Shown: one piece after another, positions 7,171 to 27,034 of the stretch
Position numbering within the stretch: position 1 is the stretch's first letter
How the letters are laid out: each line of letters opens with the position of its first letter
Assembly (NCBI GenBank): GCA_021818025.1
Contig: JAKAFH010000014.1
Coordinates: 1-37,030, forward strand
Direction of reading: 5' to 3'
Origin: Actinomycetes bacterium
Lineage (GTDB): Bacteria; Actinomycetota; Acidimicrobiia; Acidimicrobiales; RAAP-2
Length of the DNA: 37,030 nucleotides
Position numbers and translations under genes: made by a program
Notes under the pieces: generated by a model
What the model was told of the DNA's origin: nothing
Database searches by the model: none
Seen by the model: the letters and a program-made list of their open reading frames with translations, nothing else

Positions 7171-8586
7171 GTGACGAACGAGGTCCAGCTGTTTGACGTT
7201 GTGATCATCGGAGGTGGCCCCGGCGGCTACGCCGCTGCGCTCTACGGGGCCTCGGCCGGTCTCAACGTCGCGCTGATCGAGCGGGACAAGGTGGGTGGGA
7301 CGTGCCTGCACCGTGGCTGCGTACCGGCCAAGGAGTTCCTCGAGACGGCCCACGTGCGCCGGACCATCGAGCACGCGAGCACGTTCGGCATCGGCACCGG
7401 CGCGGTGTCAGTGGACTTCTCGGTGAGCCAGGCCCGCAAGAACGAGGTCGTCGACAAGCTGCACAAGGGCCTGTCGGGCCTGCTCAAGGGTCGCAAGGTC
7501 ACCATCTACGAGGGCACGGCGCGACTCGACGCGGACCAGGTCGTACGGATCCTCGACGGGGCCGACGCCGGCGTCGAGGCGAAGGGGACCAACGTCATCC
7601 TGGCCGCTGGCTCGGTCCCGCGGACGCTGCCGGGCTTTGACGTCGACGGCCAGATCGTCCTGACCTCGGACGAGTTCTTGGACCTGGACACCTTGCCCGC
7701 GAGCGCCGCAGTGATCGGCGGCGGGGCGATCGGCTGTGAGTTCGCGTCGATGCTGTCGGACATGGGCACTGCCGTGACCGTGCTCGAGGGTTTGCCGACG
7801 ATCCTCGCGGGCTGCGACAGCGAAGTGGTGAGCGTCGTGGGACGCTCGTTCAAGAAGCGCGGAATCGAGGTCCGTGCCGGGGTGAACGTGACCGGACACA
7901 CGCCCGCGAAGGGCAAGACGGCCGTGCACGTCGAAGGCGGTGACGACGTCGTGGTCGAGGTCGTCGTGCTCGCCGTCGGACGACGCCCGCGCAGCGAGGG
8001 TTTGCTCGGTGACGGGACCGGCGTCGAGGTCAACGAGCGCGGCTTCGTCGTCGCGAACTCCTCGATGCGCACCGCGAACCCCAACGTCTACGCTATCGGC
8101 GACATCGTCGCCAACACCCCCCAACTCGCCCACGTCGGCTTCGCCGAGGCGATCGTGGCGATCAAGACCATCCTGGGCGAGCCCGTGGTGCCCGTCGACT
8201 ACGACCGTGTGCCGTGGGCGATCTACTCGAATCCCGAGGTCGCTTTCGTGGGACTGACCGAAGCCGCCGCGAAGGAGCGGGGCTACGAGGTCGTCGTGAA
8301 GAAGGACCCCTTCGGTGGCAACAGCCGCGCCCAGATCATCGGCGAGACCGAAGGCGTCGTCAAGATCATCGCCGAGAAGCGCGCCGACGGCACCGCGGGC
8401 CAGATCCTTGGTGTGCACATGGCCGGTCCATGGGTGACCGAGCAACTGGGGGCCGGCTACTACGCCGTCAACTGGGAGGCGACGGCCGAGGAGGCCGCCG
8501 CGCTCATCCAGCCGCACCCGTCGCTGTCGGAGACCTTCGGCGAGACGCTGTTGGCCCTAGCTGGGAGGGGGCTCCACGTTGGCTGA
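7171..8586 (+). CDS. lpdA: Dihydrolipoamide dehydrogenase (E3)
   Basis: A 471-residue flavoprotein disulfide reductase that reoxidises dihydrolipoyl groups of 2-oxo-acid dehydrogenase or glycine-cleavage complexes with NAD+. An FAD-binding GGGPGGYAAA opens the protein. The redox disulfide is Cys45/Cys50 in GGTCLHRGCVPAK, the NAD-binding IGGGAIGCEFAS follows, and the C-terminal catalytic pair is His449/Glu454 in HPSLSETFGE. It starts a four-function lipoate operon: lpd overlaps the E2 gene by 8 bases, and the LipB-LipA fusion follows directly. Confidence 0.94.
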   Translation: MTNEVQLFDVVIIGGGPGGYAAALYGASAGLNVALIERDKVGGTCLHRGCVPAKEFLETAHVRRTIEHASTFGIGTGAVSVDFSVSQARKNEVVDKLHKGLSGLLKGRKVTIYEGTARLDADQVVRILDGADAGVEAKGTNVILAAGSVPRTLPGFDVDGQIVLTSDEFLDLDTLPASAAVIGGGAIGCEFASMLSDMGTAVTVLEGLPTILAGCDSEVVSVVGRSFKKRGIEVRAGVNVTGHTPAKGKTAVHVEGGDDVVVEVVVLAVGRRPRSEGLLGDGTGVEVNERGFVVANSSMRTANPNVYAIGDIVANTPQLAHVGFAEAIVAIKTILGEPVVPVDYDRVPWAIYSNPEVAFVGLTEAAAKERGYEVVVKKDPFGGNSRAQIIGETEGVVKIIAEKRADGTAGQILGVHMAGPWVTEQLGAGYYAVNWEATAEEAAALIQPHPSLSETFGETLLALAGRGLHVG

Positions 8587-9775
8587 CGTCACGCTGCCGT
8601 CACTGGGCGAATCGGTAACCGAGGGGATCATCACTCGGTGGTTCAAGAAGGTCGGCGACTCGGTCGCCCGCGACGAGCCGCTCTTTGAGGTCTCGACCGA
8701 CAAGGTCGACTCCGAGATGCCCTCGCCCGCAGCGGGCGTGTTGACCGAGATATTGGCCGGCGAAGGTGACACCGTCGAGACGGGCTCGCGCGTCGCTGTC
8801 ATCGACGAGAACGCGGTCGCCGGATCGGTGGCGCCGGCAGCGCCGAGCGCGCCGAGCGCCCCCGCGCCGAGCGCCCCCGCGCCGAGCACCCCCGCACCCC
8901 TTACGAGCGAGGCGCCCACCACGACGCCGGGCGAGTCGCGAACCGCTGGGGTCGTGATGTCGCCGGTCGTGCGGCGAATCCTCGCCGATGGCGGGGTCGA
9001 GCCAGCGAAGGTACACGGGTCGGGGCCGGGCGGCGCGATCACGCGGCGAGACGCCGAGCGGGCCGTCGCCAACGGGCCCACGGACGAGGAAGTCGTGCCC
9101 CTGTCCAACGGCCTTCGCCGGATGGGCCAGCACATGACCTTGTCCGCCCAGAGCACGCCGCACGGCTTCGTCGCGATCGAGGTCGACGCGTCGATCTTCG
9201 ACCAGTTGGATTCGCTCGGCCGGCGCACGCGCGACGGCGTCGAGATCTCGGACCAGATGGTGATGGGTCTCGCCGCGGTTCGCGCCCTGGGTGAATTCGA
9301 GTTCCTGAACGCCACGTTCGCGGGCGACGAGCTCGTCGTGCACCGCACCGTCAACTTGGGATTCATGCGCGAGGTACTGCGTGACGGCATGCTCGTGCCG
9401 GTCGTGCACGCGGCTGCTGGTCTGACGCTTCGCGCCCTGGCGCGCCGCGTCCACGAGCTCTTCGAACGCGTCTCGACGCGCCAGCTCACGACCGACGACC
9501 TCATGGGTGGCACCTTCACCCTGGTCGGCCCGACGGGGCCGAACTCGCTGTGGACGAGTCCGATCATCATCCAGCCCGAGGTGGCCGTGCTCTCGATGGG
9601 GGCAGTGCGCCGGGTTCCCGTGGTTCTCGAGGACGGCGTGAGCGTCGGTGTGGGGCGTCGCGTGGTCATCGGACTCTCCTTCGACCACCGCGTCTGCGAA
9701 CCCTTCACCGCGACGGCCTACCTCGAGCGGGTGGCCGAGTTGCTCGCGGGACTCGATCTGGAGAGCGAGCACTAG
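8579..9775 (+). CDS. 2-oxo-acid dehydrogenase E2 acyltransferase with an altered active-site motif
   Basis: A 398-residue E2-type protein. One lipoyl domain (residues 1-80, lipoyl-lysine Lys42 in STDKVDSEM) is followed by an Ala/Pro-rich linker, a peripheral subunit-binding domain (MSPVVRRILADGG to ITRRDAERAV) and a catalytic domain. The catalytic signature, normally H-R-x-x-D-G, reads His370-Arg-Val-Cys-Glu374-Pro375, so the general Asp is Glu and the Gly is Pro. The E1 genes are not in the window, so the complex (pyruvate, 2-oxoglutarate or branched-chain) is unknown. The start is TTG at 8579, overlapping the lpd stop, with GGGAGGGG upstream. Confidence 0.85.
   Translation: MADVTLPSLGESVTEGIITRWFKKVGDSVARDEPLFEVSTDKVDSEMPSPAAGVLTEILAGEGDTVETGSRVAVIDENAVAGSVAPAAPSAPSAPAPSAPAPSTPAPLTSEAPTTTPGESRTAGVVMSPVVRRILADGGVEPAKVHGSGPGGAITRRDAERAVANGPTDEEVVPLSNGLRRMGQHMTLSAQSTPHGFVAIEVDASIFDQLDSLGRRTRDGVEISDQMVMGLAAVRALGEFEFLNATFAGDELVVHRTVNLGFMREVLRDGMLVPVVHAAAGLTLRALARRVHELFERVSTRQLTTDDLMGGTFTLVGPTGPNSLWTSPIIIQPEVAVLSMGAVRRVPVVLEDGVSVGVGRRVVIGLSFDHRVCEPFTATAYLERVAELLAGLDLESEH
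8840..8893 (+). repeat. 15-bp tandem repeat coding for the E2 Ala/Pro linker
   Basis: Three units of GCGCCGAGCGCCCCC (8849-8863, 8864-8878 and 8879-8893, the last with one change) follow a partial unit from 8840. They encode repeated APSAP, the flexible swinging linker after the lipoyl domain. The copy number may vary between strains. Confidence 0.85.
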
Positions 9776-11401
9776 ATGCTGCGTCGACGCCACGTCGGGC
9801 GGGTCAGCTTCCGCGAGGCGAACGACCTGCAGCGCGCGTGGATGGAGGCGGCCGACGACTACGTGCTCGTCATGGAGCACCCGCCCACCTACACGCTGGG
9901 CATCCGCGCGGTTCCCGAGCACTTCCTCGTCCCGGTGTCGAGCCTCGACGCCGACGTCGTCGAGGCCGACCGCGGCGGGGACGTCACGTACCACGGTCCC
10001 GGCCAGGTCGTGGCGTGGGCCATCGTGACCGTGGACGACGGTCCGGCGGCGGGACGCGAGCACGTGGGTCGTCTCGAGGACGCCGTCATCGCCACGGTCC
10101 GCCACTTCGATCCCGAGAGCCGACTCGGCCGGGTCGGGCGACTCGAGGGCTACCCCGGCGTCTGGGCCCGGCTCGACGAGCGACCGATCAAGATCGCAGC
10201 CGTGGGCGTACGCACCGAGCGCAACCGCGCTGGCTATCGGCGCACGCTGCACGGTGTCGCACTCAACGTCGACCTCGATCTGCGGGCCTTTGATGCGATC
10301 GTGCCGTGCGGGATCCCCGACAAGCCCGTCGGCTCGATGCGCTCCCTCGGTCTGGACGCGTCCTTCAGCGAGGTCGAGGAGTTCCTCGGTTCGACCCTCG
10401 ACACGGTGCTCGGCGGCGCGGGCTCGATCGCAGCCGTCGACCGCAGCGGGGCGACGACCACGTCGGAGCGGCCACTGCTGCGCCGCCTGCGCAAAGCAGG
10501 GGTCGACCCTGACGCCGGCGTCGAGCTGCGCTCGCGCAAACCGTCGTGGCTGCGCATCGAGGCGCACATGGGCCCGGAGTACCAGTCGCTGCGCAAGCTG
10601 ACCGACGGACTTCGCCTCGTCACGGTCTGTGAGGAGGCCGGCTGCCCGAACATCTACGAGTGCTGGGCGTCGGGGACGGCCACCTTCATGGTCAACGGCG
10701 AGCGGTGCACGCGCGCCTGCGGGTTCTGCCTGATCGACACGCGCAAGCCCCTGCCCCTGGACCCGACCGAGCCCGATCGGGTCGCCGAGGCGGTGGTGCG
10801 ACTCGGGCTGAGCCACGCGGTCATCACGTGCGTCGCCCGCGACGACCTCGCCGACGGCGGCGCCGGCGCAATCGCGGCCACGGTCACGGCAATCCGCGAG
10901 CGCTCGCCCCAGACGACGGTCGAGGTGCTGATCAGCGACCTGAAGGGCGACGTCGAGAGCCTCCAGCTCATCCTCGACGTTCGACCCGACGTGGTCAACC
11001 ACAACGTCGAGACGGTGGCGCGCCTGCAGCGCGCCGTGCGCCCCAGCGCGGGCTACCTGCGGTCGTTGACCGTGCTCGCGCGCGCCGGCGCGCAGGGCCT
11101 GACCACTAAGTCGGGAATCATGGTCGGTCTTGGGGAGACCGCCGACGAGGTCGAAGAGACCCTCGCGGACCTGGCCGCGGTCGGCGTGTCGATCGCGACG
11201 ATCGGCCAGTACGTGCGCCCAACGGCCGAGCACGTGCCGGTCGCTCGGTGGTGGGAGCCCGCCGAGTTCGAGGACCTCGCCGAGCGTGGCCGTCGCGTGG
11301 GACTGGGCCACGTGCAGTCGTCACCGCTGACGCGCTCGAGCTATCACGCGGGCGAGGCGTTGCGCGAGGCCACGCCGCTGCCGTTGCCCGCGCGTCGTTA
11401 G
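9776..11401 (+). CDS. LipB-LipA fusion: octanoyltransferase joined to lipoyl synthase
   Basis: One uninterrupted 541-residue frame carries both enzymes of endogenous lipoylation. Residues 1 to about 215 are LipB, which transfers octanoate from acyl carrier protein to target lysines. It has RGGDVTYHGPGQ (66-77), the catalytic lysine in PIKIAAVGVR (Lys139) and the catalytic cysteine in IVPCGI (Cys178). Residues from about 230 are LipA, a radical-SAM enzyme that inserts two sulfurs. It has the auxiliary-cluster cysteines 285/290/296 (CEEAGCPNIYEC), the SAM-cluster cysteines 311/315/318 (CTRACGFC) and the C-terminal RSSYHA. All key residues of both are intact. The gene starts directly after the E2 stop. 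An internal GTG near codon 211 might allow separate LipA synthesis, but no stop codon separates the domains. Confidence 0.93.
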   Translation: MLRRRHVGRVSFREANDLQRAWMEAADDYVLVMEHPPTYTLGIRAVPEHFLVPVSSLDADVVEADRGGDVTYHGPGQVVAWAIVTVDDGPAAGREHVGRLEDAVIATVRHFDPESRLGRVGRLEGYPGVWARLDERPIKIAAVGVRTERNRAGYRRTLHGVALNVDLDLRAFDAIVPCGIPDKPVGSMRSLGLDASFSEVEEFLGSTLDTVLGGAGSIAAVDRSGATTTSERPLLRRLRKAGVDPDAGVELRSRKPSWLRIEAHMGPEYQSLRKLTDGLRLVTVCEEAGCPNIYECWASGTATFMVNGERCTRACGFCLIDTRKPLPLDPTEPDRVAEAVVRLGLSHAVITCVARDDLADGGAGAIAATVTAIRERSPQTTVEVLISDLKGDVESLQLILDVRPDVVNHNVETVARLQRAVRPSAGYLRSLTVLARAGAQGLTTKSGIMVGLGETADEVEETLADLAAVGVSIATIGQYVRPTAEHVPVARWWEPAEFEDLAERGRRVGLGHVQSSPLTRSSYHAGEALREATPLPLPARR

Positions 11402-22935: not shown

Positions 22936-24089
22936 CGGTCCTCTTGGAGTCGATGGCGAAGCGGCACGTCCTCGGCGACGAGGATCGCCGTGTGCGCCAG
23001 GGCCACGGCACCGTCGACGACAGCCGCGTCGGCGGCTTCGCCGACGCACGCGGCGGTGAATTCCGGCTGATGGTTCACGGCGCCGTTGGTCGGGATGCCG
23101 AGCAGCGGGTGGATCGAGGGAACGACGAGCGAGACGTTCGCCATGTCCGTCGAGAGCGTCGGGGCGGGCTCGCCGCGATCGTCGAGCTCGAAGGTGCGGC
23201 CCAACGACTCCGCCGCGCTGCGGTAGTGGCTCAGGACGTCGGGGTCCGACTCCATGTGCGAGAAGGGGTTGCCCAACTCGGTAATCGTGAGCGAGGCGCC
23301 GGTTGCGAGCGCACCGGCCTGGAAGCAGCGGGTCGTGCGTTCGCGCAGTTCGGCCAGGCGCGAGCTCGTGGTCGCGCGGCACATGTAGCGGCCGACGACT
23401 CGCGACGGGATGATGTTGGCGGCCGCACCGCCTTCGACGACGATCCCGTGGAACTGGTCGCCCGGCCGAAGTTGTTGGCGCAGCAGGCCGAGTGACACCT
23501 GGGCGATGGTCAGGGCGTCGAGGGCGTTGACGCCCTCCCACGGCGCCGCCGAGGCGTGAGCGTCACGGCCGTCGTAGCGGACCTCGAAGTGATCGACGGC
23601 CAGACACGCCGCGTCAAGTCGATCGCTCGGCCACGGGTGCACCATCATGGCGACGTGGACGTCGTCGAAGTAGCCCGCGTTGATGAGGTCGATCTTGCCG
23701 CCGCCTCCCTCCTCGGAAGGGGTGCCGAGTAGTACGACCGTGAGATCGAGTTCGTCGGCCACGGCCGCCAGGCCGATGGCCGCCCCGAGTGAGGCCGCGG
23801 CGATGATGTTGTGCCCGCAGGCGTGGCCCACGTCGGGCAGCGCGTCGTACTCGGCGCACAGCGCGACGTGCAGTGACCCGCTCCCCGCGGTGGCGCGGAA
23901 CGCGGTCGCCAGGCCAGCGGCGCCGCGCTCGACGTCGAATCCGTGGGACTGCGCCGCCCGGGCGACTGCTTCGGCGCTCACGAACTCCTCGTAGCCGAGC
24001 TCGGGGTTCGCGTGGATGTAGTGGCTGACCTCGAGCAGTGCCGGCCGGGCCGCCGCAATGGCCGCCGTGGCCCGATCGCGCGGGGTCAT
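22932..24089 (-). CDS. M20-family amidohydrolase
   Basis: A 385-residue M20D-type metal-dependent amidohydrolase (the family of hippurate, N-acyl-amino-acid and indole-acetyl-amino-acid hydrolases). Early [10 protein letters not shown] is followed by metal-binding [17 protein letters not shown] and [12 protein letters not shown] lid/dimer domain then has [16 protein letters not shown], and the protein ends with further metal-ligand histidines in the GAVNHQPEF region. The sequence does not define the substrate. It is coupled by 4-base ATGA overlaps to the biotin carboxylase gene upstream and to the ABM gene downstream, which suggests a catabolic unit. Confidence 0.88.
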
Positions 24090-25834
24090 TCGACGACGGC
24101 GACCACGTCGCCGGCGCTGACGGCGTCGCCCGGCTTGACCTTGATCGCGGTGACTACGCCCGACTTCTCCGCGCCGACGGCGTTCTCCATCTTCATCGCC
24201 TCGAGGATGACCAGGGTCTCACCCGCACTCACCGACTGGCCGACCTCGACCGAGACCTTCACGATGGTTCCCTGCATGGGCACCGAGACGGTGCCCGAGC
24301 CACTGCCGACCACGCCCGCGTGGTGCTGGCGACGCGGCTTGGCGGCCGTGCTCGTCGGCCGGGCTAGCCCATCGTCGCCACCGGCGAGCCAGAGCGCGAC
24401 TGACACCCGGCGCCCGTCGACCTCCGCGACGACGTCGCGACGCACGAGCTCGTCCGATTCGCCGCCACCGATCCCGGGACTCGTGATTCCCGAGAAGTCG
24501 AGTGTCTCTTCCACCCACTTGGTGGAGTGCGTCCCGTTCACGAAGTCGTCGCTCGACAGGATCACCGTGTCAGCCGGCAACGTCGTCGCCACGCCCTCGA
24601 TGACGGTCTCTTCGATCGCACGCAGCATCCGGCGACGGGCGCGGTCTCGGTCGGGCGCCCACACGATGAGCTTGCCGATCAGGTTGTCGTAGTACTGCGA
24701 GATGGCGTCGCCGGACTCGTAGCCGGCGTCGAGGCGAACCCCGGGTCCTGCGGGCGGCCGCAGCGAGGTGATGGTGCCCGGTGAGGGCGCGAAGCGTCCA
24801 CCGGCGGGGTCCTCGGCGTTGATCCGAATCTCAATGGCGTGTCCGTCACGGCGCACGTCATCCTGTCCGAAGGGAAGCGCCTCGCCGGCGGCGACGCGCA
24901 ACTGCCACTCCACGAGGTCCAGGCCCGTCACCAGCTCGGTGACGGGGTGTTCGACCTGGAGTCGGGTGTTCATCTCGAGGAAGTAGAACTCGCCGTCCTG
25001 GTAGAGGAACTCGACCGTGCCGGCGTTGACGTAACCGCAGGCGCGCGAGACCTTGACGGCCGCTTCACCCATCGCTACGCGGACGTCGTCAGGGAAGTTG
25101 GCGGCCGGCGACTCCTCGACGAGCTTCTGGTGGCGGCGCTGAGCCGAGCAGTCGCGTTCGCCGAGCCAGAGGGTATTGCCGTGGGTGTCGGCGAGGACCT
25201 GCATCTCGATGTGTCGGGGCCAGGTCAGGTACCGCTCCACGTAGCACTCGGAGCGACCGAAGTAACTGAGCGCCTCGCGCTGGGCGCTCTCGAAGGCGGC
25301 CGTGGCCTCATCGGGGCCCGACACGACCTTCATGCCGCGTCCGCCGCCGCCGTAGGCCGCCTTGATGGCGACCGGCCAGCCGAACTCGCGGCCGAAGTCG
25401 ACGACCTCGTCAGGGTGCTGGAGTGTCTCGTTGCGCCCGGGCACGCCCGCGACGCCAGCGCGCTCGGCGGCGAGTCGCGACGAGATCTTGTCGCCCATCA
25501 CCTCGATGGCCTCGGGCGGTGGCCCGATGAAGGTGACCCCGCGCGAGGTGATCGCCCGGGCGAAGTCGGTGTTCTCCGAGAAGAAGCCGTAGCCGGGGTG
25601 CACCGCGTCGGCGCCCGAGCGCTCGATGATCGCCAGGATCGCCTCGGTGTTGAGGTAGCTCTCGGCGGCGGTCGACCCACCCAAGGCGTAGGCCTCGTCA
25701 GCGAGACGAACGTGCAAGGCGTGGCGGTCGAGCTCGGAGTAGACGGCCACGGTCGCGATGCCGAGCTCACGGCACGTGCGCATGACCCGCACGGCGATTT
25801 CGCCACGGTTGGCGATTAGGACCTTCTGTAGCAC
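24086..25834 (-). CDS. Acyl-CoA carboxylase alpha subunit: biotin carboxylase with BCCP domain
   Basis: A 582-residue AccA3/PccA-type protein. The biotin carboxylase domain begins [20 protein letters not shown], contains the ATP-grasp glycine-rich [13 protein letters not shown], and continues with [19 protein letters not shown] and the [16 protein letters not shown] signature. A linker leads to a C-terminal biotinyl domain with EAMKMENAV (biotin-accepting Lys548). The frame is open to 26029, but the GTG at 25834 sits 4 bases after GGAGGA and matches family starts. The carboxyltransferase subunit is not in the window, so acetyl- versus propionyl-CoA use is open. The divergent birA probably biotinylates it. 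Confidence 0.93.
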
Positions 25835-26287
25835 GCGTTCCTCCGTCTCAGCACTGTCCTTTTCTACCACTCGGCTTCTGCGCACCCAATCTCGAGCGGG
25901 CGACATTCTGCAAGTTCGTGCAGTCTGATGAGTAATCATCGCACGGGCACGACCGCGTGCCGTGGCTCGAGCACGCGGTCGTCGCTCCGGCGAGCGCAGC
26001 GGTCGGCGCCGAGCCGCGAAGTTGCGCAACGTGATCCCGGTCCGACGTCACGCAAATCCGATGACCGAGCTCTGAGCATCAGCGCGGGCTCGGCGCGAGC
26101 CGACGGCGTGTGCTGGCTCGGGTCTGTGCCCGCACGCCGCGCCGGGGTCGCGAGACAGGCGTCAGCCGCACCCAGGGTGGCGTCACTATGTTGGACGGTG
26201 CGTTGCGCGGACGCGTGCATCGCGCGCTCGAGATGAAAGGGGAACGGGGTTTCGGATTCGCTGGTCGGATCACGCCCCTGGTAGCCA
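25835..26287. other. Long divergent intergenic region between the carboxylase operon and birA
   Basis: These 453 bases are the longest stretch without a convincing gene. Near the left end, TAGAAA (25866-25861, minus strand) could be the -10 box of the carboxylase operon, with its ribosome-binding site GGAGGA. On the plus strand, TATGTT (26187-26192) is a possible birA -10 box. Between them are a strong 12-bp hairpin (separate entry) and smaller stems, such as GGCTCG/CGAGCC (26087-26101) and CGGCGTG/CACGCCG (26104-26139). Short frames here have poor codon patterns and no recognisable homology. The region may carry regulatory or noncoding RNA. Confidence 0.5.
25949..25982. repeat. Perfect 12-bp inverted repeat
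   Basis: ACGACCGCGTGC (25949-25960) and GCACGCGGTCGT (25971-25982) are exact reverse complements separated by 10 bases. There is no T tract on either side. It lies about 80 bases upstream of the carboxylase -10 box and 300 bases before birA. It could be an operator, a terminator of an unseen transcript, or part of an RNA. Confidence 0.7.
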
Positions 26288-27034
26288 ATGGATTCGATCG
26301 TCTGGCGAGTCGACGAGGTCACGTCAATCGATTCGACCAATTCCTGGTTAGTGGAGCAAGCCCGTAGCGGCGCACCCGAGGGACGCGCCATCCTCGCGGG
26401 TTTCCAGCGGGCCGGACGGGGTCGCCTCGACCGCACGTGGGAGGCACCGGCGGACAGCGCCCTCCTGCTCTCACTGCTGCTTCGCCCCGCGGCGCTTCGC
26501 GGCGCGTCGTGGGCCGCCTCAGCGGTGGCCCTCGCCGCACGTGCGGCGCTCGTTCGCCTTAGTGGGGTGCGCCCGCAACTCAAGTGGCCCAACGACCTCG
26601 TGGTGGACGACGAGAAGCTCGGCGGCCTACTAGCCGAGCTCGCCACCGACGACCCGCCGGCGGTCGTCGTCGGACTGGGAGTGAACTTGACGGCGTACCC
26701 ACCGGACCTCGCCGCGACGAGTGTGCGACGCCGCTCGGGCGTGACACTGTGGCCGCGCGCACTCGCGGACATCGTGTTCGAGGAGGTCGAGTTTCGTCGT
26801 CGGCTCCTTGACGACGAGCGGGGACTGGCGGCGCTTCGCGACGAGTATCGCGGCGCGTCGGCGACACTGGGTCGATCTGTTCGCGTCACGCTGCTCGAGC
26901 GCACCGTGGTCGGTGACGCCGTCGACGTCGACGACGATGGCGCGCTGGTCGTCGACGTCGACGGCGATCGTCGGGCGTTCCGCGCCGCCGACGTGGTGCA
27001 CCTGCGTCCCCAATCAGCGGTAGGTGGCGCATGA
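26288..27034 (+). CDS. birA: Biotin-protein ligase
   Basis: A 248-residue biotin--[acyl-CoA carboxylase] ligase. It activates biotin to biotinyl-AMP and attaches it to BCCP. The substrate motifs SIDSTNSWL, GRGR (residues 43-46), KWPNDL (99-104) and EKLGGLLAE are all present, and a small C-terminal SH3-like domain ends the protein. It has no N-terminal helix-turn-helix, so it is a class I ligase without the repressor role of E. coli BirA. An in-frame TAG lies just before the ATG at 26288, which fixes the N-terminal limit; no good ribosome-binding site is seen. It overlaps rmlD by 4 bases and faces away from a biotin-dependent carboxylase. Confidence 0.92.
   Translation: MDSIVWRVDEVTSIDSTNSWLVEQARSGAPEGRAILAGFQRAGRGRLDRTWEAPADSALLLSLLLRPAALRGASWAASAVALAARAALVRLSGVRPQLKWPNDLVVDDEKLGGLLAELATDDPPAVVVGLGVNLTAYPPDLAATSVRRRSGVTLWPRALADIVFEEVEFRRRLLDDERGLAALRDEYRGASATLGRSVRVTLLERTVVGDAVDVDDDGALVVDVDGDRRAFRAADVVHLRPQSAVGGA

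Follow-up and report, generated by a model that had tools for sequence, protein, structure and literature searches.

An octanoyltransferase-lipoyl synthase (LipB-LipA) fusion kept across the actinobacterial class Acidimicrobiia

The 37,030-nucleotide window (the whole stretch of DNA analysed here) carries an uninterrupted 541-codon open frame that starts with ATG, ends with TAG and encodes an octanoyltransferase (LipB) followed by a lipoyl synthase (LipA) in a protein with a calculated mass of 58.5 kDa (Table 1). Lipoate is a vitamin-like cofactor that is built onto carrier proteins by two successive enzymes. The preliminary description of this DNA had placed LipB and LipA in one polypeptide, directly behind the genes for E3 and E2. 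The first statement is borne out by the NCBIfam equivalog models of both enzymes, whose cut-offs are passed, with Pfam in agreement, and the second by Pfam, NCBIfam and the sequence itself. The ATG of the fusion abuts the stop codon of the E2 gene with no gap, and this E2 is likely a substrate of the fusion protein.

Table 1. Positions in the window of the lipBA fusion gene, its parts and the genes upstream
Feature	Position	Strand	Evidence
lipBA fusion gene, 541 aa, octanoyltransferase + lipoyl synthase	9776..11401	+	single open frame; both NCBIfam equivalog cut-offs passed
LipB domain, residues 2-203	9779..10384	+	own profile HMM; TIGR00214; LplA-B_cat; fold match 1w66
LipB Lys139	10190..10192	+	invariant in 154/154 distinct fusions
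LipB Cys178	10307..10309	+	invariant in 154/154 distinct fusions
Junction between HMM domains, residues 204-251	10385..10528	+	HMM boundaries; pLDDT; fold alignment limits
LipA radical SAM lipoyl synthase domain, residues 252-531	10529..11368	+	HMM; TIGR00510; fold match 5exk_G
C285, C290, C296 (CX4CX5C)	10628..10663	+	154/154 distinct fusions
C311, C315, C318 (CX3CX2C)	10706..10729	+	154/154 distinct fusions
C-terminal Arg-Ser-Ser of LipA, R520-S522	11333..11341	+	148/148 fusions with letters there; 6/154 gapped
E2 lipoyl-domain acyltransferase	8579..9775	+	2-oxoacid_dh, Biotin_lipoyl, E3_binding
E3 dihydrolipoyl dehydrogenase	7171..8586	+	TIGR01350, 457.3 bits (cut-off 408.8)

The LipB half scores 112.9 bits against TIGR00214 over residues 26-191 (equivalog cut-off 83.55), and model residues 1-215 of the predicted fold align with M. 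tuberculosis LipB (1w66) at a Z score of 29.2 (rmsd 1.9, 199 aligned residues). Lys139, which we take to be the acyl-transfer lysine, and Cys178, presumably the acyl-enzyme cysteine, are accompanied by an RGG-x-x-T-x-H motif that is nearly invariant in the 154 distinct fusions; Gly74, behind this motif, is replaced by Ala in 28 of them. Fold, Lys/Cys pair and family cut-off are common to the M. tuberculosis enzyme or TIGR00214 and the fusion, whose LipB differs in bearing LipA on its C-terminus. In one locus (L228, G212:C138:41200-43400) about 30 repeat-rich residues interrupt the LipB part, and some 180 residues of charged repeats separate LipB from LipA.

The LipA half reaches 327.3 bits against TIGR00510 over residues 251-531 (equivalog cut-off 310.25), and M. 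tuberculosis LipA (5exk_G) aligns with model residues 231-535 at a Z score of 42.8 and 49% identity. C285, C290 and C296 would be the auxiliary-cluster cysteines and C311, C315 and C318 the radical-SAM cluster cysteines. Fold, six cluster cysteines, Arg-Ser-Ser and family cut-off are shared with M. tuberculosis LipA (5exk/5exj/5exi) or TIGR00510, whereas the N-terminus of the fusion's LipA runs on into LipB. Pfam LIAS_N finds only its profile positions 58-96 of 96, at 26.4 bits just below the gathering score of 27; this shortfall touches the N-terminal extension of LipA, not the catalytic domain. The earlier statement that the catalytic residues of both halves are all present holds for K139, C178, the six LipA cysteines and R520-S522, which are taken to be the catalytic ones.

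Since the LipB fold extends to residue 215 and the LipA fold begins at 231, only about 15 residues belong to neither; this stretch, approximately residues 216-230, lies around a low-confidence block at 221-230 (mean pLDDT 61). A stop codon between codons 205 and 240, named earlier as a sign against the fusion, was looked for and is absent. The GC content at the three codon positions is 0.77/0.60/0.88 in the linker, 0.77/0.46/0.89 in LipB and 0.71/0.51/0.92 in LipA. In comparisons with seven relatives, the dN/dS of the linker is 0.08, 0.09, 0.24, 0.49, 0.49, 0.15 and 0.49, thus always below 1; in six comparisons it is higher than in either domain and in the other one it equals the LipB value, the two halves ranging from 0.03 to 0.25. 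The junction therefore looks coding, with a codon-position GC that resembles the flanking domains and a low dN/dS. No ATG, GTG or TTG between codons 185 and 261 follows a Shine-Dalgarno-like stretch, so that a single product from the locus is the simplest reading; two CTG codons, 234 and 235, do follow such a stretch. Among the 154 fusions, the gap between the LipB and LipA HMM matches has a median of 62 residues and a range of 27-180, a spread as compatible with a tether as with a rigid link. Gly242, just before LipA, is nearly invariant in an alignment of 53 fusions.

The source genome is 97.5% complete, in 148 contigs. Its only TIGR00510 match and its only LplA-B_cat match over the cut-off are those of the fusion; a second LplA-B_cat match, on contig C102, stays below the cut-off (22.2 versus 27 bits), and the BirA-type biotin ligase at 26288-27034 of the window is caught by another Pfam model. 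Biotin_lipoyl domains occur at six places in the genome: two lie in the window, in E2 and in a biotin carboxylase, contig C118 has one that overlaps a GcvH-type protein, and C75, C147 and C46 account for the other three. Given these matches outside the window, the fusion probably serves several carriers, including ones encoded elsewhere. The biotin carboxylase with its carrier domain (24086-26029, minus strand) lies beside the biotin ligase (plus strand), the two genes diverging. Near the beginning of the window, about 7.5 kb from the fusion, a NifU_N (SufU-like) gene (387-845) and a SufS cysteine desulfurase gene (849-2102), both on the minus strand, place iron-sulfur supply genes near lipoyl synthase.

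The distribution of the fusion was surveyed in 235 genomes (G000-G234) of Acidimicrobiia, a group of soil and ocean dwellers, with class membership taken from record titles (Acidimicrobiia, Acidimicrobiales, Acidimicrobiaceae, Candidatus Actinomarina). The fusion is present in 221 of them, with both parts in one frame, in some cases ending at a contig end within LipA; relatives that all have split genes, the other finding that had been named as speaking against the claim, are thus not what the class contains. Six single-contig genomes have the same frame (G062, G066, G091, G101, G119, G124). Search rows that were split in two or contained stops were read individually: the LipB-LipA frame is unbroken and the stops lie outside it, and in G003, where contig ends break the gene, the LipB piece still extends to query residue 275. 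The remaining genomes comprise 11 with no match, confirmed with the profile (G004, G043, G060, G070, G096, G154, G157, G201, G205, G209, G233), two whose sole match is a piece of LipA at the end of a contig (G193, G230), and one, 85% complete (G184), that has a frame for LipB but no match to LipA. In G184 either the LipA half has apparently been lost, the single such case, or the assembly has a gap. A separate pair as the only version was found in 0 of the 235 genomes. The fusion thus appears to be a trait of the class, not a peculiarity of the source genome, and is best explained by one origin. At 46 of the 56 fused loci with record titles, an E2 match lies directly upstream on the same strand, with -4 to 121 nt between the E2 stop and the start of the LipB domain. 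Elsewhere, E2 lies on the other strand (L056), only an E3 match is found (seven loci, L057 and L060-L065), or the sequence begins at the gene (L042, L073).

Some individual genomes deserve separate mention. G149 has a lipB-lipA pair (L198, G149:C83:1500-4300) in addition to the fusion; the LipA of this separate pair falls outside the fused clade, on a long branch, and would stem from gene transfer or contamination. Conversely, a class-type fusion occurs in a record titled Bifidobacterium breve MAG (L067); it groups inside the fused clade, hence the bin is probably mislabelled. Three of the genomes without a match (G154, G157, G233; 93-95% complete) have an LplA/LipB-type domain over the cut-off and no LipA over it, and are possibly lipoate scavengers. 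Finally, the single 2.2-Mb contig of G091 has five LplA/LipB-type domain matches, one of them the fusion (C1: 993926-994711, 1024011-1024583, 1089676-1092626, 1171166-1171528, 1310008-1310514), and four GcvH-type matches, perhaps a lipoate-dependent sulfur-oxidation set, the link to sulfur being a guess.

Outside the class, we ran a profile of the 53 fusions on 396 Actinomycetota genomes, 38 from the class and 358 from outside. Its alignment (A1, 53 rows) omits L079 and L089, whose ranges contain a stop, and L041, L071, L075 and L095, which are near-duplicate or truncated. End-to-end, stop-free matches were obtained in 37 of the 38 class genomes (G043 had no match) and, among the matches listed, in none of the 285 outsiders that matched at all. 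Eleven outsiders gave, among the matches listed, end-to-end in-phase matches with 1-3 internal stops (G419, G341, G267, G488, G515, G392, G320, G584, G590, G550, G362); those read, G419, G392, G341, G267 and G488, have two frames each. A protein search matched 221 of 269 further Actinomycetota genomes, and of 20 outside-class stretches chosen for a long open frame or a match extending into LipB, none is fused on reading. The weakest matches of both searches fall outside the listings, so a divergent fusion in a genome not listed might have escaped them. Two frames are likewise found in loci titled Dietzia, Rhodococcus, Nocardioides, Mumia, Nocardiopsis, Streptomonospora, Actinorugispora and Streptomyces. 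In a contig scan that gave at least 592 stretches, none of the best 80 is titled outside Actinomycetota, some being titled 'bacterium' only. As for mobile elements, 214 plasmid records match, the best 8 covering 80-95% of the query (the search tool's own tally gives 6 with at least 80%); each of these 8 is joined from two pieces. Viral contigs gave 25 pattern matches, with no relative among them.

The separate pairs outside the class resemble the fused locus in part. The lipB-lipA pairs of Dietzia, Rhodococcus, Nocardioides, Nocardiopsis and Streptomyces have the same gene order as the fusion, and 16 of 22 named loci with such adjacent pairs have an E2 match in the 5-kb flank; the difference is that they consist of two frames with stop codons between them, whereas the fusion is one. 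Split loci picked by joint alignment score are mostly in phase, but this way of picking itself enriches for in-phase pairs. Less subject to that bias is the count among the 285 matching outsiders, where, for the matches listed, 11 are in phase from end to end and 4 more in part.

The phylogeny of both halves was examined with quick trees that contain some long branches. The LipA tree, made from 82 of 264 loci hand-chosen for spread over groups, separates 45 fused from 37 split loci with one change of state (SH-aLRT 99). The LipB tree has 66 rows, 16 of the 82 being omitted for lack of a LipB match or for one of 150 bits or less, and separates 45 fused from 21 split loci, again with one change of state, although with a support that is not strong (SH-aLRT 83). 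A single change alone fixes no direction. The trees and the distribution are best explained by one fusion event, no later than the base of the class, whose product was then kept. Most likely, it originated by loss of the stop codon in an adjacent lipB-lipA pair behind E2; we infer this as the easiest route because the adjacency and a nearby E2 are found in outsiders as well.

The window protein, predicted by AlphaFold with 53 aligned fusions, has a mean pLDDT of 90.7 and a pTM of 0.91, and a deep-branching fusion of the OCS155/Actinomarina type, 39% identical to it, gives 90.0 and 0.91. The pTM is a summary score and not an inter-domain measure; however, 0.91 is hardly reachable with freely floating domains, so a set arrangement is predicted. 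The models thus suggest that the halves pack in a fixed arrangement.

With regard to known systems, a comparable fusion family is NCBIfam NF053790 (LplA_LipA_fuse, bifunctional lipoate--protein ligase/lipoyl synthase), which by name and profile has a ligase-type half N-terminal to LipA, whereas the first half of the present fusion is LipB, not LplA. The window protein scores 343.2 bits against NF053790, below its cut-off of 800, and matches profile positions 329-605 of 606, i.e., the LipA half only. In the open-access collection searched, which covers few subscription journals and preprints, we found no paper that describes a LipB-LipA fusion, and the exact phrase 'lipB-lipA fusion' gave 0 hits there. 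Passages of PMC10332631, PMC6067878, PMC3904984 and PMC3917532 deal with LplA/LplB fusions, or with LipA and LipB as separate enzymes. Fusion sequences are nevertheless present in public databases, since the records of the surveyed loci are public.

Taken together, the fusion protein is very probably bifunctional and would combine all steps of endogenous lipoylation in a single chain, its activities being read from the sequence. The N-terminal half would take octanoyl from octanoyl-ACP via Cys178 and Lys139 and transfer it onto an apo lipoyl domain, that of an E2 or of the H protein, at the lysine. The C-terminal radical-SAM half would then insert two sulfurs, for which its auxiliary iron-sulfur cluster would be the source. 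An artefact of assembly or binning, by a chimeric contig or a missed stop, might be suspected in a draft genome of 148 contigs; yet 221 of the 235 class genomes have this frame, including single-contig ones, so this explanation is rejected for the class and has a negligible probability. It is also very improbable that one half is a relic whose step is done by a separate enzyme encoded elsewhere. The weak LplA-B_cat match on C102 would be a candidate for such an enzyme, but the key residues are invariant in both halves, both show the low dN/dS given above, and the source genome has no second LipA match.

How the fusion came to be kept is a different matter. A neutral stop-loss fixed by drift, leaving two halves that work independently on a tether without channelling, has a probability only a little short of even. 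It agrees with the broad range of gap lengths, with a linker that is the least constrained part versus six of seven relatives, with lipoyl-type proteins encoded elsewhere too, and with the in-phase adjacent pairs outside the class, which would make stop-loss easy. On the other hand, drift does not sit well with the absence, among the 235 class genomes, of any that has only a separate pair, with the high pTM in two distant members, or with the near-invariant G242. Selection for equal amounts, in which the fusion sets a 1:1 enzyme ratio with both activities behind E2 in one operon, is somewhat doubtful: the abutting ATG, the short distances behind E2 at the 46 loci, and the lack of an internal ATG, GTG or TTG after a Shine-Dalgarno-like stretch would fit it, but the adjacent separate lipB and lipA of other Actinomycetota would already be co-expressed. 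Fixed packing, if real, would leave the octanoylated domain a shorter way to travel between the two sites. The boldest reading is a rigid two-site machine in Acidimicrobiia, its halves packed in one conserved arrangement, in which the octanoylated lipoyl domain goes straight from the transferase to the sulfur-insertion site, the kind of channelling that the preliminary description had suggested; we regard it as conceivable though unlikely.

The bifunctional LipB-LipA fusion itself is real, kept across the class and made of two well-known enzymes. Within the phylum sampled, it is a clean marker of one actinobacterial class, and it may offer a single-gene lipoylation module for other hosts. Comparing the natural fusion with its separated halves would be a way to tell hand-over of the octanoylated lipoyl domain from diffusion, and if the rigid two-site machine were true, the hand-over between the lipoylation steps would be directly measurable on one chain.
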